The translations under genes and the position numbers were made by a program. Shown piece by piece: positions 4,783-63,644 of a stretch of 64,000 nucleotides of DNA; position 1 is the stretch's first letter; each line of letters starts with the position of its first letter. Under the pieces are notes generated by a model that saw nothing but the letters and a program-made list of their open reading frames with translations, was not told where the DNA came from and did not search any database. The DNA comes from Linum tenue (taxonomy: Eukaryota; Streptophyta; Magnoliopsida; Malpighiales; Linaceae), in NCBI GenBank assembly GCA_946122785.1, contig CAMGYJ010000002.1:44901414-44965413 (forward strand). The letters are read 5' to 3'.

Positions 4783-5014
4783 GGCCTTGTTCACTTTCAT
4801 TTTCGTTTCCTGTTTTCTGTTTTCATGTCATAAATTTGGCAACCGAAACGAGAAAACTTGTTTACTTTTCATTCTGTTTTCTATTCGTTTTCAACTATGA
4901 AAACAGAAAGTGGCAACTTCCTGCTGTTTTCGGAAACGACAAAATGTTGTTTTCACCTGTTTTCAACATCTGTTTTCTCAAAAACAGGAAACAGAAATGA
5001 AAGTAAACAGGGCC
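4783..5014. mobile_element. Tourist-like (PIF/Harbinger) MITE
   Basis: 232 bp beginning GGCCTTGTTCACTTTC, whose reverse complement is nearly matched at the right end (GAAAGTAAACAGGGCC). It is flanked by TTA on both sides (4780-4782, 5015-5017), the typical 3-bp PIF/Harbinger duplication. The arms are GTTTTC-rich, so a transcript could fold into a long hairpin. It has no coding capacity. Confidence 0.88.
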
Positions 5015-16004: not shown

Positions 16005-16312
16005 CGAGGAATTTTACAATGCTATATAGCATTGGTGCTATAGGTTTTTACCTTTATGGTACAACTTGAAATTGTACCTTGAATGTTATGGTACAACTTC
16101 AGATTGTACCTATACTTTTTTACAAATTTTTTTATGGTACAACTTAAACTTGTAACTTATGTGATGGTACAACTTCAAGTTGTAAAATTGTACCATAACA
16201 TAATGATACAAATTCCTTTATGGTACAACCTAAACTTATATATTTAATGTTATGGTACAACTTCAAGTTGTACATTAAAGCATCAATACTATATAGTATA
16301 GTAGAAGTGCTC
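16005..16312. mobile_element. MITE with 9-bp duplication and TGGTACAACTT repeats
   Basis: 308 bp between two CTAGACATC copies (15996-16004 and 16313-16321). Ends are imperfect 34-bp inverted repeats sharing CTATATAG and ATTG-TGCT. The interior is made of TATGGTACAACTT...TTGTACC units in both orientations. The 9-bp duplication suggests Mutator-type transposition. No coding frame. Confidence 0.75.
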
Positions 16313-21895: not shown

Positions 21896-21901
21896 AGTTT
21901 T

Positions 21902-21919
21902 TGGCGCCATTGCCGGGGA
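21902..21919 (+). other. Primer-binding site, tRNA-Asp type, element A
   Basis: TGGCGCCATTGCCGGGGA, seven bases after the LTR end. One base differs from the B and C sites. It is complementary to the 3' end of plant tRNA-Asp, the primer used by Athila-type elements. Confidence 0.85.
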
Positions 21920-22046
21920 ACAACGGTCTGTTATCTTGAAAAAGTTGTTTGGTGTTAATCTAACTTTTAATTTCCAGTTTTGAAAGTGTGTGTGCTTTGT
22001 TTGTGCAAGACTTGGTGTTATTATCTCATAGTGTGTAGGGAGGTGC

Positions 22047-23390
22047 ATGACCCAGAGCAATCCAACACCTTTTATACCACGTGATGAGGACATAATCCGA
22101 ACTCTCCGACTCCTAGCACGGGAGAGGGAGCTAGCGGAGGCAAGGAGGAGAAGTGAAGAAAGGGGACAACAATTTGGTCCCGGTGTTAGTGGAGTAGAAG
22201 TTGAAGAAGTGAAAAGTGAACCCGACATTGGAGTAGAAATGGCGGGGAACCAAAGAGAAGCAGGAGCCGCCCGAGCTCGTAACCTAAACGATGCGGCGGC
22301 GGAAGAGGAAGCCTCAAGGACAATGGGATACTATATGGCCCCACGGCCAGCGGACATTCAATCCCCAATCCTACACCCTCCCGTGGCGGCCAAAAATTTC
22401 GAGATCAAGCCGGCTCTAGTGACCATGATACAGAACAATGCTTTGTTCCACGGTCATTCGACCGAATCACCAAGAGAGCATGTGCAAAGATTTCTAGAGC
22501 TCGCGGAGAGCTTGAAAATCAATGGCATGTCGGCTTAAGCGTTGCAACAACGGCTTTTCCCCTATTCACTTGCGGGGAAAGCACTCTGGTGGCTAAATAA
22601 CCCCCCGCCTCGTTCAATCACATCATGGGATGATCTTCTCAACAAATTCATGTCCCACTACTGCCTGCCTTCAAAGACGGTCGAGTGGATAAATAAGAAT
22701 GCCCATTTCGAGCAAGAAGAAGATGAGACCTTGAAGGATGCTTGGGAGAGATACTCCGATTATTTTCTTCAATGCCCTCACCATGGGTTCGAAGAACAGT
22801 TTTGGATTGAAACTTTCTACGGTGGTCTAATCCAAGAAGACAAGATTCTCATTGACTCGCTGTGTCAAGGGAAATTGATGAATATGACTCCACCCCAAGT
22901 GACTGAGCTACTTGAAGGCATGGCCCTCAAGGGATACGATTGGGGATTAACGAGAAGTGGGAGGAGAAGCAATGATAGGGGAGTTAGAAGTTTGGGAGCG
23001 AGCGCTCCACTTGAGGCGAAGTTGGACAAGTTCATAGAGGTAATTCTTGAAGGTAAGAAGCAAGGAAAGAGGCTGGTGATGTCTTATGATTGGTGTTTGA
23101 GCACTAGCCATGAGATGGCGGAGTGCCGAGCAATGAAGGAGGCGACCACTCCAGAGGAGCAAGTCAATTTCGTGGCATATTCTAAGGCTACTTATAATCC
23201 TTGATGGAGGAACCAACGCAATTTTGCTTGGTCATCACCGACTAGTCCGAGGCCCCCGGGTTTTCAAGGCTACACAGGCAATTATCAACCTCGACCAACC
23301 TTCATCCAACAAAGTCCTCAAGTCCAAAGCTCGAACTTTCAACAACCATACCTAGCACAAGGTGGTCAAGGGTTTCAACAATAACAACAA
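22047..23390 (+). pseudogene. Gypsy gag, element A
   Basis: Starts MTQSN, matching the MTRSQS start in B and C. Contains the Athila-like gag core (LFPYSLAGKALWWL, ERYSDYFLQCPHHGF). An in-frame TAA at about 22536 and further stops near 23202 and 23381 interrupt it. The zinc knuckle is damaged: the first Cys reads Tyr (YDWC-X4-H-X4-C). It is not functional as it stands. Confidence 0.85.
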
Positions 23391-23749
23391 CCCGACAAGC
23401 TATCCAAGCTTGAAGACCTAGTGAACACCTTTGTGAGCACGAGTGCTCAAAAGTTCGAGAAGATTGAGCAATTTATGGATGTGGCGACTACCAAGTATAC
23501 CTCGATTGAGGCGGGACTCCGAAGCCATAAGCGAGCCTCCAAAGCTTGGATGTGCAAATCGGTAATCTTGACGGGATCCTCACCGAGAGACCAAAGAGAG
23601 CCCTACCTTCCCAAACCGTGGCGAACCCCAAGGATCATTTTGGGGTGAATGCAATTCAAGTGGGAAGTGGAAAGGTGACTCCTAGAGTCGCCGCTAAAGA
23701 AGTGATTGAGAAGGAAGATCCCAACCCGAGTGTGGAGGTTTTATGAAAA

Positions 23750-24590
23750 TGCTCCGCAACCTCCACCTCAATATCCCTTTCCTTGAAGCCATGGCTCAAA
23801 TGCAAAGATATGCAAAGTACCTCAAAGGATTCCTCACCAAGAAACCAAACTTGAAGGCCTCGCCAACATGACTCTTGGCGAGGAGTGCTCGGATTTCCCC
23901 CTAAAGCGCTTGCCCAAGAAGCGGTCCGACCAGGTAGCTTTACTATCCCTCTTAGTATTGGTAACCATCATATAGACAATGCCTTGGTGAACCTAGGAGC
24001 TAGTGTTAATGTGATGCCCTACAAGCTTTTCAAAAAGCTAGAAGTAGGTGAACTTAAGACCACTAAGCTTAGCATCACTTTAGCCGACCGTTTGGTCATT
24101 CGCCCGAGAGGCATTTTGAGGACATGTTGATACTAGTAGGCAAGTTTTGCTATCTGACCGATTTCTTGATTCTTGACATAAGCGAGGACTCGGATATGCC
24201 GCTCATACTCGGTCGTCCAATTCTCGCCACCGCCAAGGCATTGATAGACGTTAATGAGTTGACCTTAATTATGAGGGATGGTGAGGAGAGAATGAAGCTT
24301 GAAATTGACCCTAAGGCTAGAAGTGAGGAAGTGAAGGAATTGGTTTCGAATGATGTGAATGCGAGTGGAGGAGAGCCTCTCAAGGCAAACCCCACTATTA
24401 CTTGTGTTGCTTGTGGTGATGTTGAGCAGGAAGTCAAGGAGGGTACTATGCGCAAGAAAAACAGGAAGAATGCTTGGAGGCAAAAGATGAAGCAAGCTTT
24501 GGCCCGAATGAAGGAGAAGGCCAAAGCGAAGTTGGCCAACCAAGAGGGCCAACTCATGGAGCTTAAGATGGGAGGCTACAAGCCTAATTG
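23750..24590 (+). pseudogene. Gypsy protease and linker, element A
   Basis: The protease block has GSFTIPLSIG and VNLGASVNVMPYKLF, where the expected catalytic D-L-G reads N-L-G. DMPLILGRPILATAKALIDV follows in the next frame. The frame continues through a basic linker (RKKNRKNAW) and then runs into LTR sequence. Frame changes and the lost aspartate make it inactive. Confidence 0.85.
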
Positions 24591-25423
24591 CACATGTTTA
24601 GCCCCCGTTTTCCTTAGGTGTTTGTCGGATTTTCACTCCTAAAAGGGTGGTTTAACGGTAAGTTTCTTGTGTTTTAGCATGTTTCAGGATCTAACAGGTG
24701 AAACTAGCCCCGGAGTTGAAAGTTGGACGAAAAGGAGCGAAAACCGGGAGAAGAGGTGAAAAATCGATAGTTCACAGTTTCCCTAGAGAGTTCACGATCT
24801 GCTAAGACCGTGAAGAGGAGGCATGGGCCGTGAACATCAAGGCGTCCAGGGCACTTCATGAAGTTACTGACGAAAAGCGAGTTCACGGTCACTAAGACCG
24901 TGTACTGGAGCTATTGCCCAAGAACCTGAGCAAGCGAAGCGGTGCATTTCGACGCCAATGTTGAGTTAACGGACACGTTCAAGAGTTTACCGCCGTGAAC
25001 TGAGCCCGATCCCTGTTTAAAAGTAGAGCTTAAAGGAAGAGAGGGGGAGAGCCCAAGAGTGAGAAAGTGTCTTCTCCAGATTTTAGAGAGAGAAAGAACG
25101 AACCAAGGAAGAAAGAAGGCTAGGGTTTGGTCCAAGTGGTAAATTGGGAAGACTCTTCCCAAGAGAAGATCAACACAAGCTCAAAGGAGATTGGAGGCAT
25201 CACCATTATGGTTTCTACCTCTTCCTCTTGTGTTCTTCCCCTTTCTAGCATGGAGTAGTTTCCTTTTTCACTTGGGTGTTGTGAAACCCTAACTATTTTC
25301 CATGTAGCTATTGTGTGAATTGAATGATTGTTTATGGGTGTTGTTTAATGAAATGATTGTGTACTTTTCATGTTGATTGTCCATGTTTGTGCTTAGCAAT
25401 CCAATTGGCCATTCTAACCTAGT
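24584..25423 (+). repeat. Partial 3' LTR of gypsy element A
   Basis: Direct repeat of the first part of 20498-21895, ending abruptly at CCATTCTAACCTAG. It keeps about 60 bp around 24900-24965 that the 5' copy has lost, so the two LTRs have diverged by deletion as well as substitution. Confidence 0.85.
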
Positions 25424-26058: not shown

Positions 26059-26700
26059 TAGGGTTGAATTTTCGGTTATCTCGGTTATAACCGATAACCG
26101 AAATGTCTGTTACGGGTTAACCGCGAAGTCAGACACGCCTACCGCCAACCGCCCGACGGATCTCATCGGTTATCAGACAACCGACTGGTCGGTTACCAGT
26201 TAGTTGCTCGGTTAACCAAGATAACCGCAACGACGCAGTCGGAGGGGAGGAACAGTGGCGGCTGCTGGCTGCTCGTGGACTGGTCGGTGGAGGAGGAGAT
26301 GACGGAGTAGCATGAGCGCGGGTCGGGGAGGGAGATGGAGGAGAGCGGCGGCGACGTGGAGGGAGATGGCGGAGAGAGGCGGCGTCGGGGAGGGAGATGG
26401 CGGAGAGATGGGGAGTCTCTTCGCTGAATCGTCGTTCAGGGCAAGCGGCAGGGGAGAGAGCTCGCGTCTTTCGCGAGAGAAGAGAAAGGGGTTAGCGGTT
26501 AGGGGTGGATCGATTAGGGTTAGGTTGGAAGTGGGACGGCGTCGTTTTATGAGGGGTTAGATGTGTCGGTTAGCCGGTTAACCGGCCTATCTAGCCCCGC
26601 TACCGAACACCGACCGCGCACGTCTATTTCGGTTAGTCGGTTAACCGGTAACCGCCGGTTATCGGTTAACCGGCAACCGATAACCGAACCTCCAGCCCCA
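26059..26700. mobile_element. hAT-like element with CGGTTAACCGG array
   Basis: 642 bp, starting TAGGGTTGAATTTTCGGTTATC with a related inverted end at ...ACCTCCAGCCCCA. Flanks GTTTTGAA (26051-26058) and GGTTTGAA (26701-26708) match at 7 of 8 positions. Both ends are packed with GGTTAACCG and ATAACCGA words. The centre (26240-26540) is GC-rich with GGAGAGATGG-type repeats and may be foreign cargo. No transposase frame. Confidence 0.75.
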
Positions 26701-46725: not shown

Positions 46726-48027
46726 ATGACCCGTAGCCAGTCGGGAGGTTTACTGACGTTGGATCCAGAGATTGAACGCACCTGCAACCAACTTCGGAGA
46801 CAACAGCGAGCTAGACTGGCTACGGTGGAGCGCATAGACGGCCAATTGAGCAGCGAGTCCGAGGACGAGTACGAGATGGAACGCGATCACAACCCACCTC
46901 CGGCGAATCAGCTCTTGGGGAACGACCCCAATCCCCAGGGAGATGGGGTTCATCATCATCCACCACCACCGGGTCCCACCTTGGAGTATTACTACACTCC
47001 ACGGATTGCTGACATCCGCCCGGTCATCCTCTATCCGCCCATTCCAGCAAACAACTTCGAGATCAAGCTATGTTGGATTCAACTCATTACATCCTCTATC
47101 CAGTTCCATGGCTTGAAGGATGAGGAGGCCCGGGTGCATCTCTCCCGTTTTCTGCAGCTGACGAACGGGTTCAAGCTGAACGGTGTCCCGGATGATGCAA
47201 TCCGCCTTCACCTCTTCCCCCATTCTCTGGCGGGGAATGCTAAGAGGTGGTTGGAGACCCAGCCCCCATTGTCCATCACTTCTTGGGACGATCTGGCAGA
47301 CAAGTTCGTGCACATGTACTATCCGGCATCGAAGACCACAGAGATTCAGCGGGAGATCACTCACTTCCGCCAAGAGCCAGATGAGTCACTTCGTGATGCA
47401 TGGGAGCGGTACATGGGATATTTCTGGCAGTGTCCCCATCATGGCTTCAGTGATGCATTCACAGTGGGGAACTTCTACAGCGCCCTCACTCTAGACAGCC
47501 AGAGGGTGATTGAGTCTCTATGCCCAGGAGGGGATATTCTCACTAAGACTCCACCTGAGCTGAACCAGATGATTAGTACCTTGGCTGCCCGAGATCATTC
47601 CTGGGGGCAGAACAGCAGAGGCAGAAATTCCCGGGACCGGGGTGTGCACGCTATGGAGGCCAGGTCCGGGTTAGAGCAGCAGGTGGCTGAGTTGGTGCAG
47701 ACATTGAAGCAGCCCAACAGTCTCCTTCCGGGCCGAGGTGTAGCTACGCCTCCAGTAGCTCAGTGTCAGTGGTGTGAGAGCCCGAATCACCTGGTGGAGG
47801 ATTGTCAGGCTATGAGGGAGTCCTCTACTCCCCAAGAACAGGTGGATTTCATCGCCAATGCTCGGCGCCTTGACCCATACAGCAGTACATACAATGAGGG
47901 GTGGTGCCAGCATCCCAACTTTGCCTGGAACAGCAACACCACTAAACCACCTGGTTTCCCAGCACCAACGGGTGGTTTTCAGCAGAGACAGCCCTTCCAG
48001 GCTAGGCAGGGGCCACCACCACAGTAG
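46726..48027 (+). CDS. Gypsy Gag protein, element B
   Basis: 433-codon open frame starting MTRSQSGG at the same site as in A and C. It holds an acidic/Pro-rich N-terminal part, the retrotransposon gag core (about residues 100-260: FEIKLCWIQL, HLFPHSLAGNAKRWLE, RDAWERYMGYFWQCPHHGF), then a zinc knuckle CQWC-X4-H-X4-C with all four ligands and a Gln/Pro-rich tail. TAG at 48025 falls where relatives continue (QPYQPRQG follows in frame), so the frame is slightly shortened or read through. It would form the particle and bind RNA. It is the best-preserved retroelement protein in the window. Confidence 0.88.
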   Translation: MTRSQSGGLLTLDPEIERTCNQLRRQQRARLATVERIDGQLSSESEDEYEMERDHNPPPANQLLGNDPNPQGDGVHHHPPPPGPTLEYYYTPRIADIRPVILYPPIPANNFEIKLCWIQLITSSIQFHGLKDEEARVHLSRFLQLTNGFKLNGVPDDAIRLHLFPHSLAGNAKRWLETQPPLSITSWDDLADKFVHMYYPASKTTEIQREITHFRQEPDESLRDAWERYMGYFWQCPHHGFSDAFTVGNFYSALTLDSQRVIESLCPGGDILTKTPPELNQMISTLAARDHSWGQNSRGRNSRDRGVHAMEARSGLEQQVAELVQTLKQPNSLLPGRGVATPPVAQCQWCESPNHLVEDCQAMRESSTPQEQVDFIANARRLDPYSSTYNEGWCQHPNFAWNSNTTKPPGFPAPTGGFQQRQPFQARQGPPPQ

Positions 48028-48500
48028 CAGCCCTACCAGCCTAGACAGGGGCAACCATTCATGCAGCCCCAACGTCAGTATGCCGAGCCAGCAGCAGCGC
48101 CAGCTCCCGATAATCAGATGACTGAGTTGAAGAACATTTTGGCGGCATTCATGACCACCAGCCAGGCAAATTTCACGAGGGTGGACCAGAGCATAGCCTC
48201 ACTGGAGGCAGGACAGAGGAACTAGGGTGCCATTATGCAAGATTTACAGAACCAGGTTGGTGCCATAGCTCGCCAAATTACTACCGGGCCCCGGGGACTC
48301 TACCTGCCACCACCATCCCCAATCCACGGAGCCGCACCAGCAGCTGGATGCCATTTTACCAGGAGCAGCACCACATCGCTGATCCTGCCCGACCAGGCAG
48401 GAGGAACCACTACCTGCTTCAGCACTTCCAGCCGATGATGCAAAGTGCGGGTGGAGAAGGAAGCCCCTGCTCCCAAGCCACAACCAGTGGTTAAGGAGCA
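48028..48500 (+). pseudogene. Gag tail and linker, element B
   Basis: In-frame continuation after the TAG: Gln/Pro-rich, then NQMTELKNILAAFMTTSQAN, a helix matching 60490-60714 of element C. A second TAG (about 48223) and frame changes follow. It would connect gag with protease in a full-length relative. Confidence 0.7.
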
Positions 48501-49090
48501 TGTGCCCCAGCTTCCCTTCCCCACTCGCCTACAAAGACAAGCTGGAGACTGAGTTTGCCAAGTTTATGGCAATGTTGAAGCAGCTCAACATCAGCATACC
48601 ATTTGTGGAGGCACTGTCGAAGATGCCCAAGTACGCAAAGTTCATGAAAGATCTCCTCACCAACAAGAAGAAACTTGGGGATCTCTCGACAGTGCTGCTG
48701 AGCGAGGAGTGTTCTGCTGTCCTGCAGAACAAGCTGCCCGAAAAGCGCAAGGACCCAGGGAGTTTTACTATCCCTCTTACTATTGGCAGCATGCATGTAG
48801 GAAAGTCCTTGGCGGACCTAGGCGCTAGCATTAATGTCATGCCATAAATTGTTCAAAAAGCTAGACCTAGGTGAACTTAGCCCTACTAGGATGAGCATTC
48901 AGCTAGCTGATCGTTCCGTTGTGCATCCTAGGGGTATCATAGAGGATCTGCTTGTTAATGTGGGTGCATTCACATATCCTGTTGATTTTGTTATTCTGGA
49001 TATAAATGGATGTGGATGTGCCTTTGATTCTGGGTAGACCATTTCTTGCCACCGCCAAGGCACTATTGATGTGCATGATGGTAAACTGAT
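48500..49090 (+). pseudogene. Gypsy protease, element B
   Basis: The frame 48500-48847 has KLETEFAKFMAMLKQ, GSFTIPLTIG and SLADLGASINVMP with the catalytic D-L-G intact. A small deletion after MP gives a stop, and 48834-49037 continues the domain in another frame (KLFKKLDLGEL, GRPFLATAKAL-like end). One or two indels separate it from a working protease. Confidence 0.85.
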
Positions 49091-49151
49091 CTGCGTGCTG
49101 GGAATGAACAGGCTACTTTTTCTGTGACTGAATTCGATCACTGTGCTATGA

Positions 49152-49547
49152 TTGCTGTCACACCTGTGCATGCTATTTCTGACCAGTACACGAGCCTGTC
49201 GTGTATCCTTCTGCACCTCTCATTTTGCAGGATCCCCCTCTCACCCTTCGCCGCCACTCACTCCAGCCTCACCACCGAATAAAAAGCTCAAAGAGGAGTG
49301 GCGGCCGAAGCAGCAGGTGCCTAAGCCCACTCGGAAGAAAGGCGGAGACCACTATGAGCTGGTCCCACCCTGCATCCAGATCACCCTGGCCATCCGCGTA
49401 CTCACTTGCCTGCATTCTGTCGGATGGCCAGGTCGAGCTAACCATTGCTGGTGGTGCACCCGTCGGGTGCACGGTCACCACCTGAAGCTGTACCTCAAGA
49501 GTGACGTGGATCCGCTCTTGGAGGCACCCTTTCTCGCGGACCCTTAG
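49152..49547 (+). pseudogene. Integrase C-terminal remnant, element B
   Basis: The frame ends VHGHHLKLYLKSDVD...ADP-stop, matching the integrase C terminus of element C (NGHRLKLYLGDKVE...ADP-stop at 57224). The region between protease and this remnant, which should hold RT, RNase H and the integrase core, is missing. A stretch KKLKEEWRPKQQ of unclear origin lies at the junction. Confidence 0.7.
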
Positions 49548-49768
49548 TTCCGCCATGGGCGTCCAGCTAAAAGACGGTAAAGAAGCGCTTGTGGGGAGGC
49601 AACCCCACCACGGCTTGCATTTCTTTTTCCCTTTTTTCTGAGTTTTTGTGTCGTGTCGAGTCAGTTGCATGTCTGTAATGAAGTTCGGTCGTCTGTGATG
49701 CATTGATATGGTGTTTTCGTGCAGGAGAGGTTGAAATTTTGGGCGAATGAGATTTTGGCCGATTTGGG

Positions 49769-50090
49769 GGAAATACCCGGTCGTGGGCCAAAATACCCGA
49801 CCGGGTATTTTTGGACCACGATCGGGACCCCCTCTGTTTCTCGGGGGGAAAAAAGGGAAATACCCGACCTCGTCCCAAAAATACCCGACCGGGTATTTTT
49901 GGTTCGAGGCCGGGGATTTTCAAGGCCTTGCACGCTGCGTTTCACAAAATACCCGACCTTGACCCAAAATTACCCGACCGGGTATTTTTGGCTCAAGGCC
50001 GGGTATATTGGTCCATTCGATACGCCGCGTTTAACAACCCCCGGTCGTGGAATCAAAAATACCCGACCGGGGATTTTTCCTATTTAAAGG
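49769..50090 (+). promoter_or_regulatory. Internal palindrome cluster and TATA-like box, element B
   Basis: At least four full AATACCCGACCGGGTATTT-type palindromes or half-pairs, the same word as in the B LTRs, lie between the integrase remnant and the Athila-like ORF. The last (about 50057-50077) ends a few bases before TATTTAAAGG (50081-50090), which resembles AATTTAAAGG in the LTR. A CT-rich leader follows. It looks like a second copy of the LTR promoter core. Confidence 0.65.
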
Positions 50091-50176
50091 AAACCCCCGG
50101 TCAATTTCTCTCTCTACCCTCATTTTTTCCAAAATTCCTCCTCTCTTCTCTCAAAACCTCTCCCCTCTCTCCTCTT

Positions 50177-50330
50177 TGGCCGCCGGCCGCCGCCGCGCCG
50201 CCGCCGGCCGCCGCCGCGCCGCCGTCGCCGCCGCCGCGCCGCCGTCGCCGCCGGTCATTTTCCGGCGACTTTCCGACGACTCGCCGGCCATTTTCCGGCG
50301 AGCCTCCCGGGCGATTTTTTGGCTCCCTCA
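50177..50330 (+). repeat. GCC-repeat tract in the leader of the B internal transcript
   Basis: Long run of GCC/GCCGCG units (50177-50252) followed by TTTTCCGGCGA repeats to about 50310. Extremely GC-rich against the AT-rich surroundings. It lies between the internal TATA-like box and the extra ORF and would be in its 5' leader. Confidence 0.8.
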
Positions 50331-50697
50331 CGCGTCCCTCACCCCTTCCTCGTGTCCTAGCTACAGTTCTACTTGCGTTTTCACGTGTGTTTCTTGTTAA
50401 TTACTCTTTTCATGGAAAATCGAACTATAGATTGTAGGACCGAGAACTGTGTTTGCATGCCCGATTTAGAGTAGGGTGAGGGATGCCTTGAGTATGCATG
50501 GATTTATATGTGGTATATGTGCTGCTCCCGTGTACTTAATGTGGTAGGTTCTGTGGTCTTGCCTTGATTCCGGTTGAGTTGATTTCGATTCAACCAGTTG
50601 TGCTTAACTGTTAGCCTAGGTGAGCCTTAAGTGGGGGAAGTGATGAACCCATGCTGTTGGTCCTGACAAGTTTTTCTTGGCTCCACCTTTGGTTTGT

Positions 50698-50708
50698 TGG
50701 TTTTGCAG
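50698..50708 (+). other. Predicted 3' splice site before the Athila-like ORF, element B
   Basis: TGGTTTTGCAG precedes GATCATG. The T-rich tract (GGTTTGTTGGTTTTGCAG) fits a plant acceptor, and the same AG/GATCATG junction is kept in element C. This suggests that the ORF is expressed from a spliced RNA. Confidence 0.5.
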
Positions 50709-50712
50709 GATC

Positions 50713-52024
50713 ATGTCCCTCGACCATCCCTTTGTGCAGGGCCTGCGCCTGCACCCGGAGTACGCGGATCAGTTCCGCAAGGTGATCCGAGGGAAATTGG
50801 AGCGCCACCACCACCTCGAGTGGGCAGTGTTCGAGCAGCTCCACTGCATGCAGGAGCTCATCGCCGCCATCAGTCACCGCGATTGGCGGACGCTGCTTAC
50901 CATAGACGAGCCCACCTACACGGAGCTGGTGTGGGAGTTCTACACCACGTTTAAGTACGACAGCAAGAAGCCTCGGGACTCCTGTGTAGTGACGTTCATG
51001 CTGGGGAGCTACCCCCGGGAGCTGACCATTGACGGGTTGGCCTACGCCTTGGGGATCGAGTACCACCCGTTCGATCGCCACGAGGTCGAGATCCCGAACC
51101 CGACCGAATGGAACCAGGACGAGTTCTACCGCCAGGTAGCCAGGCACGCCCATAGGTATGACTTCTTCGATGCGGGCCAGACCTACGTCAGCACCCTCAA
51201 GCCGGAGTGGCACATTCTGAACCTGCTGATCACCCGCTCCATCGTCCCCAACGTCACCGGCTCGCATAAGATTCCGAAGCGGGTGCTGTATGCCATGTAC
51301 TCGAGGGGTACCCGGAGCACATGCTCCACTTGGGTTTTTCGTGGCCATCACCTTCTCCCGGTGCCACGGGAAACCCACCCATCTCTTTTGTGGTCCCCTG
51401 ATCACCCGGTTGGCGCGCCATTTCGCCATCAGCTTCCAGGGGCTTCATGATGCTTCTGCACGGGGCGGCTCCACCCCCCTCAGCCGGGACGTGCTCCACA
51501 GTGCACGCCTCCTGGCCACTGATGACATCCGTACCTTGGTGGATGGGCTTTCTATGCTCCCTGAGGAGGTTGTGGATCTCGATGAGGACGAGGAGGACGC
51601 TGACTACTCAGGAGAGGAGGTGGATGAGGATGCTGATGATGATGATGACGGGGCCATGGATGCCGATGAGCCGGAGCCCCCGCTCTCTCCACCAGGGGAC
51701 CTTCAGCCTCGACGGAGACCAGTGAGAGGCGAGTCCTCCTCTGGTCCTTCTGGTCCTTCTGGTCCGTCGATGGCTTCTGGCCCATCGATGGACTTCTTCA
51801 CGGAGCAGTTCCAGCAGATGGGGCTCCAGTTCCAGCAGCTCGGTCTTCAAAACCAGCAGCTCATGGACCATCAGGTCCAGTTCTACCAGCAGTATTCGGC
51901 CCACCAGGCCGAGTACCAGTCCAGGCTGGCGGATGTTGACGAGCGCCTTGGCCGCTTGGAGACCCATATGGGAGTCACTAGTGCTCTCTCATGGAGCGGG
52001 AGAGAGATCATGGACGCCAACTGA
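50713..52024 (+). pseudogene. Athila-like extra ORF, element B
   Basis: Starts MSLDHPF at 50713. N-terminal domain with DWRTLL..DEPTYTELVWEFY and LKPEWHILNLLI, shared with element C. Two small indels near 51300-51345 shift the frame into 51290-52024. There the protein has a strongly acidic stretch (about 51565-51680), a Ser/Pro/Gly segment and a Gln-rich coiled-coil-like end (FQQMGLQFQQLGLQNQQLM ... RLGRLETHMG). Without the indels it would be about 435 residues. It is of the type found after pol in Athila elements. It has no signal peptide or membrane segment, so it does not look like an envelope protein. Function unknown. Confidence 0.75.
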
Positions 52025-53396
52025 TGGAGTACTCGGAGCACCTGCTCCAGGTTTGTCACCCTCCAGAGGAGCACCACTGGACCACCGGTGGAATCATTCA
52101 CCACCACACCCACCACCAGAGGATGGTGACGACGACCTCATGAACCAGATCGACTTCTCCGGTCTCGGAGGGCCTTAGGGCATGTTTTGAGTGGTTTTGT
52201 CTTTGTCAGCATGCAAACTGATTTGTGTCGGTTTTGTTTTTTCTTTTTGGATGCTGTACTATTGGGCTGACCATTGGACCTAACATATGTGTTTGAGCTC
52301 TTTGGTGGTTCCTTTAGCTGTGCCTGTGTTCTCGACTGGTCCTCTCTCCAGTCCGTTTTATGCCGACTGGTCCATTTCCAGTCTCCTGCAGTCTGTGCAC
52401 ACCGGTAACATCATTCCCCTTTCCTTCCCTCTTCTCCATTGGGGCAATGTCGATCTTAAGTGTGGGGGGGATGTTTATCTTTTTACTGCATTAGATCTAT
52501 TTGTGTGCTTAGAGCCTAGTCCATTGTCCAAATTTTTAAAATTTGAGGGCTCCAAGTACGTGTTCCTTGCAATTGCCTGCTCAGTATGCTTTGAATTGAC
52601 AGTCTCTGTAGTAATGTGCAACCTAGGGAGGTAGTGTAGCACTATGGAGGATGTTGATGCATTTAAGAAGTCTCATTTCTTCTTCATATTGTGTTGGTTG
52701 ATTGAGTGAATTAGTGATCTTAGGACCCTTGAATTGTGTGGTGTTGTGGACTCTCTGCCTGTCATGGACTCTTGTATCATGTTTTGAAAATAACAGGTGC
52801 TCGAAAATGTGCTTTAAAATAACGTCTCCCGTGCGAATAGGGCGAAAGTGTGTAAGGGGAGACGGGAATCCGTTCCCAATTTCCACCTACTACCTCCAGC
52901 CCCCTTACATGTCTTTCCCCGCACGAGGCTCGAGACACCCGCTCCTGGCATGGCCGGTAAGAGCTGGGCTCCCGCAAAACCTTTGCTAGGTGGGAGCCCC
53001 GTTTTCTGAAAAACAGGTTGGAACCCTTGAAAAAAAAGAAAGAAAAAAAGAAAAACAAGCAAAAAGAAGAAAGAAAAGGGGTTCCAACCATCTTCAAGAA
53101 GAAAATCGAGCACCTTGAAAAAATGTGAGTCCATGATCTTTTGTTTTTGAGAGTCTCTTCATCCACGATTCATTTGTCCTCTGTTCACTATTTACCATGA
53201 TGCCGACTCGAGACTAGCGTTCTCGCCGAAGAAGCTATGAGATGACTTGTGCGTCGGTTGACTTCGTAAGTTTCTAAATGATCTAGGAAGTCCTCTACCT
53301 ATGATCGGGGTTGTTTGTTGCTATAGAGGTCTGGAGAGTTGCATTGGTTTGAGTTAGGTTTGCTTGGGGACAAGCAAACGGTTAAGTGGGGGAGTT
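52025..53396 (+). other. 3' non-coding region of element B
   Basis: After the extra ORF. Contains GACTGG/CCAGTC repeats (52332-52392), a second polypurine-like tract CTTAAGTGTGGGGGGG (52455-52470), A/G-rich DNA near 53030-53100, and the polypurine tract proper (53386-53396). No convincing coding frame. Confidence 0.75.
53381..53396 (+). other. Polypurine tract of element B
   Basis: GTTAAGTGGGGGAGTT directly before the 3' LTR. The related tract before the C 3' LTR (minus strand) reads GGTTAAGTGTGGGGGAATTT. Confidence 0.88.
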
Positions 53397-54714
53397 TGAT
53401 AGACCGATAATTACACATGTTTTCACCCCTATTCTGAAGCCGTTTGAGATGTGGATCCTAGTGTTTTAAGCCGATTTCATGCTAGGTTGTGTGTTTATGT
53501 CATAGTTCAGGACCCGGCGTTGGAATCGAGGCGGGAGAAACGAGTTCTGGGTCGAAAGAGCGAAGTTGGGACGAAGGGGACTGATGGAGGAAAATACCCG
53601 GCCATGTCCAAGAATACCCGGCCGGGTATATTATTTTGGGCGCCCCCGAGAATCAGAGAGGGGCCCGGGCAGAAGGCTTAAATCCCGGTCGGGGTTTATT
53701 GGAGCAGACCGGGGATTTTCCCCCTGACCAAAACGCACGCTTTAACAATACCCGGTCGATACCCAAAATACCCGACCGGGTATTTTGACGGGTATCGCGA
53801 CAGGCAGCCAATTTAAAGGAGAAGAAGGCCAACATTCAAGGGTTCCGAGTTTTAGAGAGAGAGAGCGATTCCCAGAGAGAGAAAGTGACGAACCAGAGTT
53901 CCCAAGTGCCATAGCTTGATCTTCATCACCATTCGAGCCCGGCTTGAGCTTGGAGAAGTGCCGATTAACGTCCAGGAGCAGAAATCCATCTTCTCAGTAT
54001 GATTTCCGCGTCTGAATCTGCTTTTGCTTCTTTCTCTATGGAGTAGTTTCCCCATTCATCTGGTATGGAGAACCCTAGATTTGTATGCTAGGTCCGATTG
54101 TATGAACCCAAGTACAGAGTTTATGAATTGATTATATTCGATTGAGGTTTGAATGATGGAATGACTTGAATCCTGATCAAATTCCTATTTGTTTCTGCTT
54201 TGACCTAGAATGAGAATATCTGCCTAGGTTGATAGAGTATCCTTAATTAAAGGTAGTGAATTGGTGACTTTAGTCGAGGAGCCAATTCGCTATTCTGTAC
54301 CGAATTCAATTCGGTAGTGGAGGTTTGGTTCGTTAGGGCCTCAATCTGTTTACTCCGGTGGAGGTTATTCGCCCGCTAGAGACTCAGATTGAGAGGGTCT
54401 AGAGACCTTTAGTCGAGACTTCAGACTGTTTAAGAACCTTCCGCAGTATAACTTTCATGAAAACTGAACTTGGTAAATTGCAATCCGGCTTAACTGCACT
54501 CTAGGGGGAACCATATCCGGGTGACCTCTCTTGACTTGAACAACCGTTTAACTTGATTTGCGTTTTTGTTAGTTTGAACCTGCACTAAAAGTTCACTGCT
54601 AGATAACGAGAATTCACCGAGTAGTCATCAAATCTAGGACCCGGGTTGACAATACTACGCTTTAGGAAGTGGTTATACTTGGCCATTTTCTAGAGTGACA
54701 GTAGGAGTGAGTCA
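53397..54714 (+). repeat. 3' LTR of gypsy element B
   Basis: 1318 bp, TGATAGACCG ... GAGTCA, directly after the polypurine tract AGTGGGGGAGTT. The flanking CCAGT duplication fixes its end. Confidence 0.94.
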
Positions 54715-55094
54715 CCAGTCAAGGGCAGGGGACTGGAAGTGGACCAGTCCAAGGGTACATAGCGAGAGGCATGAAAACACACACACTGGGTAAAAGAACC
54801 ATAGATCCATGTCTACAATCCAAATGAAAAGGAAAGCCAGAACCAACAACGACGGGAGTCTCAGTCTGGACAAGAAATGAAGTACATAACCCTCAAATCT
54901 CCACTAGATCACATCGCCACCATCGCCCGTGGGAGGTGGGTAGTCGTACTCGTACCCCGGTGACTGCACGAAGGGGTAGTGGATCTAGTTATGGTTTAGG
55001 CCCATATAGTGCATGATGTAGTGCTGGCCGGACATGAGACGGCGGCCGCGGTCCCACTCACGATCAAGGCGGGCGTGGATGTGCTCCTGGCTAG
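54715..55094 (-). other. 3' non-coding region of element C (proximal part)
   Basis: Between the Athila-like ORF and the B insertion site. It contains degraded codons continuing the ORF to about 54905, then a GACTGG/CCAGTC-rich segment (54715-54755) conserved with element B at 52332-52392. Confidence 0.65.
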
Positions 55095-56126
55095 CTAAAT
55101 TTGCTCGTTCAGACGAGCAATGGCTGCTAACTGGTCAGCAGCGGTGACCGCAGGGGCTGCGAAAGAACCAGGGGCAGCATCAGAAGGACCCGTGGGGGCC
55201 TGGGTACGGCGTGCAGGACAACGGGGGACACGGTGCCCCCGAGCAGCACTCGACTTTGGCCGGTCGTCCCCGATAGGAGCAAGCATATGCGGCCTAAGAA
55301 GATCCGCGATCCATGTCAGGCGCCCCTCACGATCGAGCAGGTGCTGATGTCGGAGAACAGCCTCGTTGAATGGTGTCGCGACGTGGATTAGGGTCATGCC
55401 AGCAGTGTCGACCCCATAGTAGCGGGCCAGGGTTGTGCTCACCGGGCCACAGACAAGGTAGCGATCCTGGCTGGCGCAGACCTTGGTGATGGTATGCGTG
55501 ATAACAGAGCCCAGCTCTATAGTGTCCTCCTCCAGACCCATCACATGCATGAAGTACAGCGTCCGAAGGGTGACCAGGTTGGCCGAGCCCCGACTTGGAG
55601 TGTAGGACTGAGTGAACAGGTGGTTCAGGATCCGCCACTCCGGACGGAGTAGGGTGGCCCTCGTCTGGCTGGGTATGTACTCCTCACCCAAGTTCTCAGG
55701 TCGGCAAATGCGCTCGAAGTAAGCCTGGCAAGGAAAGGAAGTGGGATCCGCCTCGTCTATGACCAATGCACCATCGCCGGAGTCGAGGGAATTCAGGCCA
55801 AGTGAAACAGCCAACTCCCAGTAACTGACGGAGTGCTCGACCCTGCCGAGAGTGAAACGAATGGCGTCAGCATGTTCAGCCGCCTTCCGCGACGAATGGG
55901 AGAAGGAGGCGTAGAACTCCCAAACAAGCTTCTGGTAGGTCGGCTCGTCGAGGCAGAGGAGGCGCCGCCAACCATAGGCGCGAACAACGGCCTCCATCTA
56001 CTGGCGAGCGTGGAGCGCCTCGAACACCCCAAAGTCCAGGTGCAGGTGCTCGGAGATATGGCGGGTGCGGATGGTCCGCAGGTGGTGGCACTGAGTGGTG
56101 CTTAAGAGGTCCAAGTAGTCCTCCAT
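55095..56126 (-). pseudogene. Athila-like extra ORF, element C
   Basis: Begins MEDYLDLLS at 56126, where AG precedes GATCATG exactly as in element B. One stop (TAG for CAG, codon 43) interrupts it, and the open part is 300 codons (55095-55997). Shares with B the block W-R-x-L-L-x-x-DEPTY-x-x-LVWEFY and a later LRPEWRILNHLFT. It ends in a Pro/Ala-rich tail and an AAIARLNEQI helix at another TAG. It resembles the extra ORF downstream of pol in Athila-type elements (Pfam families for plant transposon proteins). Molecular role unknown. Confidence 0.75.
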
Positions 56127-56734
56127 GATCCTTCACAGTAACAGAGAGCACAAATGCCACATAGAGGGGGGTTAATGTTAGGCCAAACCACACAGGGAGC
56201 CCTCAAATAGTAAGATTTGGACAGTGGACTAGGCTCTCGGTGGAATAAACACACAATCCAATCCCAAATATCCATCCAATCGGCTATTCACCAAACAAAT
56301 TCCAACCAAACATACAATGGCACAATTCTACACATGCAATTGGTAGGCCGGCAAAACTAATTCAGGGGAACAATTACTTCAAGCATATATCTCTATCGGC
56401 CTACCAAATCGATCTAAGTTCATGCCAAAATCTCAAGTTCTGCACGTATAACCCTAGGTATCAATTCTCCAAAATTGACTAAGAGACAACGAGAACGAAC
56501 CTGAAGACGCAAGTAGATACCAAAGGGAAGGTGAAGAAAAGAGCAAATGCACTCCAGAACCACCGGAGAACTCGCCGCCGGCTACCCAACCTCCGCCAAA
56601 CAGGACCAAACTTCTGGGGAATGTGCTCCCTGTCGCCAGAAGCGTAGGCGAAGTCTCGGTTTGTGATTTGGAGGTCGGGGAGGCAGTTGTGTCCGGAAAA
56701 TCGAAATCTGATGGGGGAAGAGGCCGAAAATCAA

Positions 56735-56975
56735 TTTTTATAGGGGGGAGTAAAACACGAGCGGGCCTAGAACACGGTCGTGTTTCTGGTGCTTCGCGCC
56801 CGTGTTTTAACTGCCTAGGCGCGCTCCCCGTTTAATAAAACACGAGCGGCCAGGGGTCTAAACACGACCGTGTTTTTAACCCCTGGCGCCTGTGTTTTTA
56901 CTGCCGAGGCTGCGCAGAAAGAGATTCCAAAACACGGGCGGGCAGGGGTTAAAACACGGCCCGTGTTTCACTACC
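56735..56975 (-). promoter_or_regulatory. Internal palindrome cluster and TATA box, element C
   Basis: AACACGG / CCGTGTT words, the same as in this element's LTRs, repeat between the end of integrase and the Athila-like ORF (for example AAACACGACCGTGTTTTTA). On the minus strand the cluster is followed within about 10 bp by CTATAAAAATTG (56732-56743). The layout copies the LTR promoter, so an internal promoter for the downstream ORF is inferred. Confidence 0.6.
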
Positions 56976-57223: not shown

Positions 57224-58333
57224 ACTAAGGGTCCGCGAGTTCAATTACCAACTCCGCACTTTCGACCTTGTCTCCCAGATAGAGTTTGAGACGATGGCCA
57301 TTTAAACGGCTCAGTCTACGAGTTGGCAATCTCGATCATGCTATATGGGAACACCTGGGTGACCTTGAACGGTCCAGACCACCGGGAGCGGAGTTTTCTG
57401 GGAAAGAGCTATTATAGAGGAGAATTCGATCGCCAACCTGAAACCCTTCGGACCCCTCAAGCGGGCGTCGTGAAGACACTTAGCTCGCTCCTTATATAGC
57501 TTGGTGTTTTCGTAGGCGTGGTAATGTCATTCCTCCAGCTCCAACATCTGCAATTTACGTTCAGCACCTGCAAGACTAACATCCAGGTTGAGCAGCTTAA
57601 GGGCCCAAAAGGCCTTGTGCTCTAGCTCCACGGGCAAGTGACATGCCTTTCCATAGATAAGCCGATACGCTGAAGTACCAATTGGCGTCTTGTAGGCAGT
57701 CCGGTATGCCCATAAAGCATCATCGAGCTTGGTGGACCAATCCTTGCGGGACTGATCCACCATTTTCTCCAATATGTGCTTGAGCTCCCAATTCGTCAGC
57801 TCGGCCTGACCACTCGTTTGGGGATGGTAGGCCACGGACACCTTGTGGGTGACACCATAGCGGGATAGTAATTTATCGAACTGGCCTTGGAAATGGGTCC
57901 TTCTGTCGCTAATGATGGCCCTAGGTGTCCCGAACCGAGAAAACAGCTACTTCAGAAATTGAAAACATGTCTAGCATCATTGGTGGGAAAATCTTGTGCC
58001 TCAACCCACCTAGAGACGTAATCAACAGCAACTAAGATATATGTATTGCCAAATGATGGTGGGAAGGGGCCCATGAAGTTGATACCCCAGACAAAAAAAT
58101 ATCACAAGTTATAAACACATTCTGGGGCATCTTATCACGGGCAGAGATGTTACCTGACCTCTAGCATCGATCGCACCTGCATGCGAAGGTGTCAGCGTCC
58201 TTGAAGAGCGAGGGTCAGTAGAAGCCCGATTGTGGCACCTTCCGCACCGTGTAGTTACCACCATGGTGCCCGTCAGTAGGTCCCTCATGGCAATGAGACA
58301 CAATGCCATCCATCTCATTTTGCCATGACACAA
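57224..58333 (-). pseudogene. Gypsy integrase, element C
   Basis: 58109-58333 carries the zinc-binding N-terminal region out of frame. 57527-57841 has the distal catalytic-core motif [12 protein letters not shown] and [14 protein letters not shown]. The C-terminal end NGHRLKLYLGDKVE runs to the stop at about 57224. Frameshifts prevent a continuous protein. Confidence 0.85.
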
Positions 58334-58375
58334 CGATGGATGACCCCATCGTCTCCGATCCTGAAAAGATGCGGG

Positions 58376-59617
58376 TCATCCGAAGTAGTGCTTCAGTTTA
58401 GAGAAGAACTTTCTCTTGGCGTGAGTCGTCATCCCCTTGGGCAACTGCTGGCCCACCAGATAATTTGCAAAATCGGAGTACCAAGGGGTGACACTCTCCA
58501 CCAAGCACATCATCATCACTCGCTCATCTAGGAAGGAGTCGTTGATCTCCTCCTCGAGGTTGTCCGCAGGAGGTGCGTCCAACCGGGAGAGATGATCAGC
58601 AGCCACATTTTTGGCTCCTTTCTTGTCCCGGATCTCGATGTCGAACTCCTGCAGTAATAAGATCCATCGTATGAGCTGAGGCTTGGCATCGGCCTTGCTC
58701 ATCAAGTATCGAATTGCAGAGTGATCCGTGTGTATTGTCATATGGGACAAGACCATATAAGGACGAAACTTATCAAAGGCAAACACCACCGCTAGCAGCT
58801 CCTTCTCTGTAGTGGTGTAGTTCTCCGGGGCATCGTTAAGTGTCTTCAAGGCGTAGTAGATAGGACGGAAGTGTTGATCTCGCCTTTGCCCCAGAACAGC
58901 TCCAACAGCAAAGTCACTGGCGTCGCACATAAGCTCGAACGATAAAGACCAGTCAGGAGTGACCATGATAGGAGCATGAGTGAGCTTCTCCTTCAAGGTC
59001 GTGAATGTTGTTGTGCACGCGTCAGTGAACTGGAAGGGGGCATCCTTCTCAAGGAGCTTCGTTAGGGGCAAGGCGATTTTGGAGAAGTCTTTTATGAACC
59101 GCCTATAGAACCCTGCATGGCCCAAGAATTCCAGGTTGTGAAGACAGTGAGAGAATGAGTCCCCAAAACCGAAAAGTCGTCCATAAACACCTCTATGATT
59201 TCTCTGACCACTCAGTCGAAGATGGCTAGCATGCAGCGCTGAAATGTGGTCGGGGCATTGCACAGCCCGAATGGGAATAGAAGGAGGGGCTGATCCCTCA
59301 GATATCAGCTTCACGATCTCTGCCCGAACCACAGCCTCCAGATTCGGTGTCAGTCTCCGCTGGGGCTGCCTCACAAGTCGCATCTCATCCTCTATCAGTA
59401 TCAGATGGGAATAGAAGGAGGGGCTGATCCCTCAGATATCAGTGATTTTCCATGCCAAAGCTCGCTCGTACTGCTTCAACAAGGCCACCAGTCTGGTCTT
59501 CTGCTCAAGTGTGAGGGTCGAGCTAATAATGACTAGAAGTTTATTCCCCTCCCGGAGAATTGCATACTCCAAGTGAGGAGGGAGGGGCTTTAGCTCCAGT
59601 TCTGGTGGCTCCTCCAT
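58376..59617 (-). pseudogene. Gypsy reverse transcriptase (deleted) and RNase H, element C
   Basis: 59432-59617 is the region before RT. A frame at 58376-59383 begins with RT N-terminal sequence (EIVKLISEG), then jumps to the catalytic segment, where the FMDD motif is readable only in another frame, so a stretch of the RT palm is deleted. RNase H follows (LMCDASDFAVGAVLGQ, TTTEKELLAVVFA, IHTDHSAIRYL) with its acidic residues. A segment repeated at 59261-59302 and 59405-59443 marks a local duplication at the deletion. Confidence 0.87.
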
Positions 59618-60939: not shown

Positions 60940-62133
60940 CCCTCATATATGTTCCATTGTAACGATCAAGGCGCCGAGCATTGGCGATGAAGTCCAACTG
61001 CTCCTGGGTGTAGTAAACTCCCGCATAGCCTGGCAGTCTTCCACCAAGTGGTTCGAGCTATCACACCACTGGCATTGTGCAACTGAATGGCCAGCCAATC
61101 CTCTGCCCGGAATGAGACCGTTGGGCTGGTTTAATGTCTGGACCGGCTCGGCCACCTCCCGCTCAAGCCCGGATCTAGCCTCCATAGAATGTACACCGCG
61201 ATCCCGGGAGTTCCTACCTCTAGTACTCTGCCCCCAAGAGTGATCTCTAGCAGCCAAAGTACTGATCATCTGATTCAGATCGGGTGGATTCTTGGTGAGA
61301 ATGTCCCCTCCTGGGCATGGAGACTCGATCACCCTCTGGCTCTCTAGAGTTAGAGCACTGTAGAAGTTTCCCACTGTGAATGCATCACAAAACCGTGATG
61401 GGGACACTGCCAGAAAAATCCCGAGTACTGCCCCCAGGTATCACGTAGTGACTCATCTGGCTCCTGGCGGAAATGAGTGATCTCCCGCTAAATCTCCGTG
61501 ATATTCGAGGCCGATAGTACCTGTGCACAAACTTGTCGGTCATATCGTCCCATGACGTAATGGACAGTGGGGGCTGGGTCTCTAACCACCTCTTTGCATG
61601 CCCCGCCAGAAAGTGGGGGAAGAGGTGAAGACGGATTGCATCATCTGGTACACCATTCAGCTTGAACCCATTGGTAAGCTGCAAGAACCGGGAAAGGTGC
61701 ACCCTCGCCTCTTCATTATTGAGGCCATGGAACTGGATGGAGGATGTGATCAGTTGAATCCAGCATGGCTTGATCTCAAAGTTATTTGTTGGAATGGGCG
61801 TCCCGTGGAGTGTATTAGTACTCCATAGTAGGACCCGGCATGGGTGGTGGATGCTGAGCCCCATATGGCTCGGGAACTGGGTTATTGGCCAGAACCTGAT
61901 TTACTGGGGAACCTGCATGGGCATCCCTAGGGGTTGGTTCTGCCCCAGGTTCAGGTTCACCCTATTGTGCTCGTCGCCCATTTCCTACTCCTCTTCAGAA
62001 TCGCTGCTCAGATGGCCGCCGACGTGCACTTCCTCATAGCTAGTCTTGCTCGCTGTTGTCTCCTAAGCTGGTGACAAGTGCGTTCTAGCTCCGAGTCTAA
62101 CGGTAGTAAGTCTCCCGACTGGCTACGGGTCAT
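60940..62133 (-). pseudogene. Gypsy gag, element C
   Basis: Starts with MTRSQS at 62133, then is frameshifted. Readable frames are 61385-61864 (NNFEIKPCWIQL, GHAKRWLETQPPLSITSW) and 60943-61407 (QCPHHGF-like junction, then FYSALTLESQRVIE). The zinc knuckle CQWC-X4-H-X4-C is intact. Closely related to B gag, with several stops. Non-functional. Confidence 0.87.
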
Positions 62134-62257: not shown

Positions 62258-62275
62258 TCCCCGGCAACGGCGCCA
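62258..62275 (-). other. Primer-binding site, tRNA-Asp type, element C
   Basis: Minus strand reads TGGCGCCGTTGCCGGGGA, identical to the B site and complementary to the 3' end of plant tRNA-Asp. Confidence 0.9.
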
Positions 62276-62281
62276 AAAACT

Positions 62282-63639
62282 TCACTCGCTTTTACCGTCA
62301 CACTACAAAGTGGCCAAGTATAACCACCTACTAATGCGTAGTATGGCGGGTTTAGTTCTAAATGTCAACCCGGATCCTAGGTGTGATGACTACTCCGTGA
62401 GATTCTTATTATTTAGCGGTTAAACTGTAGTGAAGTTCGAACTAAACTAGCAAGCAAAAGCAGTAAATATTGTGTTCCAAGTTTGAGAGAGGTCAGATAT
62501 GGTTCCCCCTAGACTGCACTTAAGCCAAGTTGTAATTTACCAAGTACATATTCAATGATAGTTATACTGCGGGAGGTTCTTAGACAGTCTGCAGTCTCGA
62601 CTAAAGGTCTCCAGACCCTCTCAATCTGAGTTCCCAGCGGGCGACTAACCTCCACCGGAGTAAACAGACTGAGGCCCTACGTACCAAACCTCCGCTACTG
62701 GAATAAATCTAGTACATAATAGTGAATTGACTCCTCGACTAAAGTCGTCAATTCACTACCTTCAATCAAGGGTGCTCTATCAACCTAGGCAGATATTCTC
62801 ATTCTAGGTCAAAGCAGGAATAACAAGAATTTGATCAGGATTCATGCAATTCAGAAACCATGCCTCAATTGAATATAATCAATATCAAAGAATTTGTACT
62901 TGGGTTCATACAACCATCCCTAACATACAAATCTAGGTTTCTTCATACTAGGTGAGAGAGGGAGTTTACTCCATAGAGAGTGAAGGGAAATCTGCTTCAG
63001 ATACGGAAATCGTTCTGTGAAGGATGAGGATCTGCTTCTGGTAATCAATCGGCACTCCTCCAAGCTTCCACCGAGCTCCAATGGTTTGAAGATCGATTTA
63101 TGGCACTTGGAAGTTATGTTCGTCACTTTCTCTTTCTAGGTTTTCTCCTCTCTAGCTCTCAAAATTGGATGCCGCTTCTCTTGGCTGAAATCTCCTTTTA
63201 ACCTGAGATTGGGCAAAACACGGTCGAGGACATGGCCGTGTTTTGCTTCATCCCGCCTGTGTTTTGCTTCACTTGTGGCAAACACGCCCGCGTCGCTCCC
63301 AAAACACGGTTGTGCCCAATAAGTGACACGGCCATGTTTTGGTCCAATGGCGCCCGTGTTTTGGACCCTAAACAGCAATCACGAGCACGCCCTCGGCAGT
63401 AAAAACACAGCCTGGGGAAACACGATCTATTTTTAAAAGGGATGCCCGTGTTTTTGCTCCAGCTCCACCGAACGACCTCCAAACGACCCGAAACTCGCGC
63501 CTAGCCTCTCCTTGACGCTTGTGACATGAAATGTGACCAAATAGCACAACCCAGCGTAAAATAGGCCAAAGATGCACGACTAGGAGTCGCAAACAGATAA
63601 GAAATAAGGGTGCAAACACGTGCAAATACATCGTTATCA
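62282..63639 (-). repeat. 5' LTR of gypsy element C
   Basis: 1358 bp, TCACTCGC to TTATCA on the plus strand, beside the primer site at 62258-62275. Differences from the 3' LTR are scattered substitutions and small indels, clearly more than between the two B LTRs, so C is the older insertion, as nesting also shows. Confidence 0.9.
63190..63460 (-). promoter_or_regulatory. Palindromic-word cluster and TATA-like box, C 5' LTR
   Basis: Copy of the 43149-43420 cluster, with AACACGG / CCGTGTT words and the TATA-like GGTTAAAAGGA on the minus strand at its left edge. As the 5' LTR, this would be the promoter driving the element's genomic transcript. Confidence 0.6.
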
Positions 63640-63644
63640 ATGCT

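Follow-up and report, generated by a model that had tools for sequence, protein, structure and literature searches.

Repeated palindromes in front of retrotransposon promoters are known from the Sireviruses, in which 13 elements carry element-specific palindromes (RM boxes), 12 of them with a CGG-CCG core, in many LTR copies shortly before the TATA box (Bousios et al. 2010, PMC2829016). According to the parts of that paper used here, extra copies are present in the nine elements with an env-like ORF, 77 of 79 lying ahead of it, and absent from the four that have no such ORF; RM boxes are missing from six further Sireviruses that do contain env. The authors suspected that stress-related host factors act there. 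VANC proteins of the VANDAL elements bind to short motifs, which vary from one VANDAL family to another, with binding and demethylation both measured (Hosaka 2017, PMC5735166), and the sections consulted describe motif and protein as diverging together (PMC5735166, PMC10398659). In foamy viruses the accessory protein Tas acts on the LTR promoter and on an internal promoter (excerpts of PMC8670036, PMC4929722). Many OTA (Athila/Tat) and SIRE elements have a highly divergent extra ORF (eORF) on the 3′ side of pol; an env-like role has been speculated and any function questioned (Neumann 2019, PMC6317226, in part). Finally, host plant mobile domain proteins have been linked to a promoter motif, with binding not shown in the portion used (Nicolau 2020).

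Here we compare with these systems three LTR retrotransposons, A, B and C, from a window of 64,000 nucleotides of the Linum tenue genome. As in the Sireviruses, CGG-CCG palindromes precede the TATA-like box of the LTR, and copies stand ahead of an extra ORF only where that ORF exists. Unlike the Sireviruses, which are Ty1/copia elements, the flax elements are Ty3/gypsy and Athila-like, and the RM paper, in the parts used here, mentions neither a reader encoded by the element, nor a tie between word and ORF type, nor an exchange of cassettes (PMC2829016). The likeness to VANDAL lies in related elements with different short repeated motifs, read by the element’s own protein there and, as we propose, here; in contrast, VANDALs are not LTR elements, their motifs are described as lying in tandem repeats, and the term “palindrom” is absent from PMC5735166. 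An LTR and an internal promoter under one accessory protein is what we propose for flax by analogy with foamy viruses, which are vertebrate retroviruses and for which the parts of PMC8670036 and PMC4929722 used mention no words common to the two promoters. Like the eORFs surveyed by Neumann, the flax eORF is divergent and 3′ of pol; the function called speculative in what we drew from that paper has one testable candidate here. An earlier note on this DNA had known of no such description for Athila-type elements. That claim must be narrowed, because the general layout has been known in Sireviruses since 2010. We found no report in the open-licence literature of promoter words in Athila-type elements or of a tie between word and eORF. 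As far as found, the Athila-type setting, the word-eORF linkage and the exchange of cassettes are new.

We take Athila to be the lineage name for elements of this type. B is nested inside C and consists of gag, a protease-like stretch (by eye) and an eORF, with no RT or integrase seen by eye among its listed ORFs (Table 1). C has the order gag, RT-RNase H, integrase, which is the gypsy order, and a Ty1/copia backbone is rejected because its integrase piece comes after RT-RNase H. The segment TGGCGCCGTTGCCGGGG, identical in B and C, presumably serves as the primer-binding site of both, and would tentatively be assigned to tRNA-Asp. Pfam gave no family for the protease-like stretches of B and C, nor for the last ORF of A. 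Rfam snoR71 matches lie antisense within gag of B (47342-47447, minus strand) and of A (22684-22789, minus strand); they are more likely retrotransposon sequence that entered the Rfam family than a snoRNA gene.

Table 1. Features of elements A, B and C, in positions of the window
Feature	Position	Strand	Remarks
Element A	20508-25422	+	gag present
A 5′ LTR	20508-21312	+	TTCACGG words 20695-20888; TATA-like box 20903-20913
A 3′ LTR	24584-25422	+	TTCACGG words
Element B	45240-54714	+	nested inside C; target duplication CCAGT (45235-45239 and 54715-54719)
B 5′ LTR	45240-46576	+	
B 5′ U3 word cluster	45437-45641	+	ATACCCG half-sites
TATA-like box, B 5′ LTR	45656-45665	+	AATTTAAAGG
B candidate primer-binding site	46583-46599	+	TGGCGCCGTTGCCGGGG
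B gag	46726-48027	+	PF03732
B anchor segment	49533-49687	+	conserved; directly upstream of internal cluster
B internal word cluster	49769-50078	+	nested dyads of ATACCCG half-sites
TATA-like box after B internal cluster	50080-50090	+	CTATTTAAAGG
B eORF region	50713-52172	+	B-type; more than one frame; first frame PF20167-like
B 3′ LTR	53396-54714	+	words 53594-53795; TATA-like box 53810-53819
Element C	42309-63640	-	gag, RNase H of RT, integrase pieces, eORF after pol
C 5′ LTR	62284-63640	-	words 63216-63453; TATA-like box 63194-63203
C copy of TGGCGCCGTTGCCGGGG	62259-62275	-	identical to B’s
C gag pieces	60943-61900	-	two frames
C pol pieces	57527-59431	-	RNase H part of RT 58376-59431; integrase piece 57527-57946
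C anchor segment	57239-57084	-	
C internal word cluster	56751-56975	-	AACACGG half-sites
TATA-like box after C internal cluster	56732-56744	-	CCTATAAAAATTG
C eORF region	54907-56126	-	C-type; longest ATG frame 55095-55997, PF20167-like
C 3′ LTR	42309-43652	-	words 43171-43414

Each element has its own word. Counted on both strands, TACCCGR occurs 6 times in the 5′ U3 of B, 6 times in the 3′ U3 and 11 times in the internal cluster, and AACACGR 6, 8 and 10 times at the corresponding places of C. TTCACGR is present 5 times in each LTR of A and 0 times in its interior (3,431 bp). None of the three words occurs in the cluster regions of the other two elements, and single words outside the clusters are occasional (0-4 per 2-20 kb region of the window). 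These counts bear out the earlier note, which had reported words repeated in the LTRs and interior of B and of C and in the LTRs of A. A blind scan for 7-mers with at least 5 copies within 350 bp recovered the clusters of all three elements without knowledge of the words, returning 51 rows from the window compared to 1 row in total over 8 order-1 Markov controls. Across the 692-Mb genome the B palindrome ATACCCGRCCGGGTAT matches 3,666 times in forward and 3,599 times in reverse orientation, with perfect palindromes counted twice, compared to 0/0 for the same string read backwards.

The scan also gave clusters elsewhere in the window, which are probably in part subterminal repeats of small DNA transposons. 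CGG-type word clusters (ACCGGA, ATAACCG) at 2264-2690 and 26060-26690 resemble, by eye, the subterminal repeats of TIR-bearing small hAT-like DNA transposons, and other words (GAAAACA, GGTACAA) recur in local clusters at 4810-5000 and 16055-16275.

In the window elements the word clusters precede TATA-like boxes, as had been claimed, but at 5-14 bp rather than the claimed 10-20 bp; the box of the C LTR, GGTTAAAAGG, is a weak TATA. The placement of an internal cluster ahead of an extra ORF holds for B and C, which contain the only two eORF-type matches in the window. A has neither: no internal cluster lies between its LTRs, and the known eORF types find no match there.

The words share a common grammar. 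The half-sites are ATACCCGR in B, AAACACGR in C, NTTCACGR in A and, in elements from elsewhere in the genome, AATTACGR (F), mostly YCACACGR (E) and CGCACGR (one L030 LTR). CGR beside the dyad is fixed and the outer letters vary, the types compared having CGR.YCG as a shared core; one half of an ATACCCG word frequently reads CGA. Spacing was surveyed in seven elements, including three B-type ones. Of 43 pairs of half-sites with the same orientation lying within 40 bp of each other, 35 had a distance of 20-22 bp; of 72 pairs that face each other within 30 bp, 63 had a distance of 8 bp (30 pairs) or 28-30 bp (33 pairs). Because spacing and CGR are constant and the outer letters variable, the arrangement is common to the elements and it is the private part of the word that changes.

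We found two more words in the genome, each in an LTR and an internal cluster: ATTACGG in a complete element and CACACGG in one whose 3′ LTR was not found. Element F carries ATTACGG in its 5′ LTR (L010), internal cluster (L032 and L033) and 3′ LTR (L033), and its D-type eORF is 89% identical to the relative P0038. A long insertion at L032:4300-5600, LINE-like by eye, splits its internal cluster. Element E (L010) has 10 copies of CACACGG in the 5′ U3 and 12 before an eORF that is about equally distant from the other eORF types; a B-type LTR sits in between, and the pairing of LTR and interior rests on strand, order and intervening gag. A second C-type element, C2 (L011, L029), has AACACGG 10 and 10 times in its LTRs and 11 times internally; the 99.9% identity of these LTRs over 1,361 bp marks it as a recent insertion. 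Within-element agreement thus extends to four words, complete for ATACCCG, AACACGG and ATTACGG and without the 3′ LTR for CACACGG. An internal cluster was seen only in elements with an eORF; A and a short element with CACACGG LTRs (L030/L026), neither of which matches the known eORF types, have no internal cluster.

The stretches L009-L028 were picked by the B word and are informative only on ORF type versus word; here all nine B-type eORFs have B words, 4-16 upstream and 4-8 in U3. The weakest internal clusters among these B-type elements are those of L021, L022 and L027, and L021 has ATCCCCG forms among its B words. ATACCCG also occurs in the U3 of a distant LTR family (L014:4748-5297, L015:4689-5238 and L011:4618-5167; R-U5 83-93 bits), with no eORF seen in these stretches. 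This family may use B’s factor or its own, and because of L014 and L015 we dropped the B word as a mark of one family. One more private word is probably CGCACGG, present in 11 copies in an LTR at L030:211-1621 whose R-U5 is B-like (90%); the adjacent eORF remains are too damaged for their type to be assigned.

We also sampled elements by eORF type with their words unseen, covering C- and D-type. Ranks 1, 11, ... 91 were taken from 102 scored hits of P0012 (C-type) and 103 of P0038 (D-type), themselves the best of 7,057 and 6,615 candidates, and one piece upstream of the ORF and one at the expected 3′ U3 were read for each; because they come from the best-scoring hits, the copies are close relatives rather than independent events. 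The predicted word lay ahead of the ORF in 20 of 20 elements and in the 3′ piece of 18. AACACGR had 10-12 copies upstream in all ten C-type elements and 7-19 downstream in nine; the tenth (L050/L051) has AACACGG internally and AAGCACGG, one letter off, in U3. ATTACGR had 9-12 copies upstream in all ten D-type elements and 9-12 downstream in nine, with no LTR visible in the downstream piece of the tenth (L057). Any single word of another type reached at most 1 copy per piece in either sample. A mismatch between LTR and internal word within an element, which the earlier note had named as evidence against its reading, was slight (1 of 20 sampled elements, by one letter), and the check on relatives it had called for came out as expected, with the word agreeing within elements and differing between subfamilies.

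What the word follows is the eORF and not the backbone. B and C are alike in gag (91% identity over 95 aa, 76% over 142 aa), in R-U5 (80%) and, as the earlier note had pointed out, in the primer site, yet their words differ at both places and their eORFs are 31% identical. F and C2 likewise differ in their words, with R-U5 at 92% and eORFs at 47%, whereas C and C2 (L029), with R-U5 at 66% and eORFs at 59%, have an identical word. L028 is closer to C (86%) than to B (78%) in R-U5, yet its eORF is B-type and its words are those of B. Among the 28 pairs that eight elements form, eORF identity (best local piece, 86-309 aa) was 58-77% in the 7 same-word pairs compared to 30-47% in the 21 different-word pairs, whereas R-U5 identity overlapped (66-92% versus 64-92%).

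The R-U5 sequences form two groups, I (B, C, E, L012, L021, L028 and one L030 LTR) and II (F, C2 and another L030 LTR), which are 64-71% alike over aligning parts, apart from a 58-bp match. A C-type eORF with AACACGG is present on both LTR backbones: the ten sampled C-type elements divide into six of group I, three of group II and one without a hit, and the six of group I are nearer to B (87-92%) than to C (79-82%). R parts were found in 7 of the 10 D-type elements and are short (108-146 bp) and 92-96% like that of C2. These comparisons support the conclusion that, at the level of sequence, the word goes with eORF type and not with the gag or R-U5 backbone. The earlier note had proposed a family-specific factor co-evolving with its site; the word-eORF association partly supports this idea, in which DNA binding by the eORF protein and letter-by-letter co-evolution would be presumed steps.

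The eORF products resemble PF20167 (Transposase_32, Pfam cut-off 45), mostly at scores below its cut-off. P0001 passes at 49.1 bits; the ORFs of B and C, the E ORF of L010, P0012, P0023 and P0025 score 24-38.8, under the cut-off, and P0028 has no match. Plant mobile domain appears in the UniRef names of some relatives, and PF10536, the Pfam family of that name, had no hit in the ORFs and relatives scanned. B-type ORFs have a dN/dS of at most 0.35 in 26 of 28 pairs, with 0.44 and 0.76 in the other two. On a simple scale, four relatives (P0012, P0038, P0035 and P0025) contain no long hydrophobic stretch, their top 19-residue hydropathy being 0.69-1.24. We do not favor an env reading of the eORF for this reason, though the E-type segment of L010 reaches a borderline 1.77 near its end; L029 reaches 1.88 before the first Met. 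The AlphaFold model (22 relatives) is poor (pLDDT 47.5, pTM 0.34), so any DNA-binding fold would be conjectural; by eye, this low-confidence model has a long, coiled-coil-like C-terminal helix. A scan of IMG/VR with the C ORF gave 15 stretches that fit a pattern, 0 of which encode a relative. On dN/dS, hydropathy and the helix model, the eORF is the natural candidate for a reader of the words.

The association of word and eORF suggests, but does not prove, that the eORF encodes the element’s own promoter-recognizing factor. We propose, with a probability of about 60%, that the words serve as operators in a regulatory circuit specific to the element itself, with that specificity encoded by the eORF. 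Its protein, PF20167-like with a helical tail, would supply that specificity directly or within a complex. One target would be the LTR promoter, which makes genomic RNA, and the other a putative internal promoter for the eORF’s own mRNA. The common CGR.YCG core and 20-22 bp spacing would be the shared part of the site and the outer letters the family’s private code. The effect could be activation or anti-silencing.

The words could instead be read by host transcription factors, with each lineage having recruited another factor and the eORF linked merely as a neighbor in a recombining block. We consider this possible but on the unlikely side. The cluster, ORF and U3 are contiguous and the conflict between R-U5 and ORF groupings implies recombination, but internal clusters were seen only in elements with an eORF, which speaks against it. 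Promoter words without an eORF match in A would suit host factors, as would the Sirevirus palindromes, for which a motif database returned mainly sites of stress-related host factors in the part of the paper used (PMC2829016). A common core and spacing would be expected if a single protein family had shifted its specificity, more than from unrelated host factors, and the mostly low dN/dS of B-type ORFs also speaks against a bystander.

It is quite improbable, in our judgment, that the eORF protein is a VANC-like anti-silencing factor, removing DNA methylation at the LTR and internal region rather than activating transcription: CpG-rich, short non-coding repeats that differ between related elements do recall VANDAL and VANC (PMC5735166, in part), but the dyads end so close upstream of the TATA-like boxes that promoter control fits at least equally. 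Hardly any weight falls on the internal cluster as a functionless relic of a U3 copied inward, its agreement due to shared descent, since the alignments beyond the words in C2 (133 bp, 72%), L012 (107 bp, 74%) and E (62 bp, 82%) drop, once words are masked, to best matches of 7-37 bp in the seven elements compared (C 20 bp at 100% and B 25 bp at 88% remain), which makes recent copying unlikely as the whole cause, and words keep their spacing while most spacers differ, with the B and C internal clusters ending at TATA-like boxes of their own.

Returning to the circuit with an eORF-encoded reader, we propose a 3′ cassette made up of internal cluster, ORF and U3, which would have moved as a unit between LTR/gag backbones and so kept code and reader matched. 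First-strand transfer joins the R-U5 of one RNA to the U3 of another. Recombination during reverse transcription, for example at this step, would carry the 3′ block as a cassette. A non-coding anchor segment, whose first 104 bp are 94% identical in B and C, stands upstream of the cluster in these two and likewise in L010, L029 and L032; the genome has at least 1,382 candidates for it, of which 40 were scored. It may help cassette recombination, and may be a recombination or replication signal. In the genomic RNA the cluster, eORF and U3 are neighbors at the 3′ end, and this linkage accounts for the joint movement of word and eORF. Linkage by itself does not explain an identical private word at cassette ends about 3-4 kb apart; we propose that the word is the same at both ends because the reader protein must recognize both promoters. 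Exchange of whole 3′ cassettes is an alternative to step-wise co-evolution, and the backbone conflicts point to exchange. Against a reader count the one-letter difference between U3 and interior in L050/L051, the words in A and other LTRs without an eORF, the B word in L014 and L015 with no eORF seen, the mixed words of L021 and the two pairs of higher dN/dS.

More broadly, there is perhaps an even chance that Athila-type elements carry exchangeable self-recognition cassettes, in which the eORFs, perhaps those of Sireviruses too, are readers with private codes that keep families from cross-activation. Since ORF type predicts promoter word across backbones, the question of eORF function becomes one for a binding assay. 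If true, this reading would help to account for the stronger divergence of eORFs relative to gag, and it would mean element-specific promoter control in plant Ty3/gypsy elements, with a logic comparable to that of VANC and foamy virus Tas.
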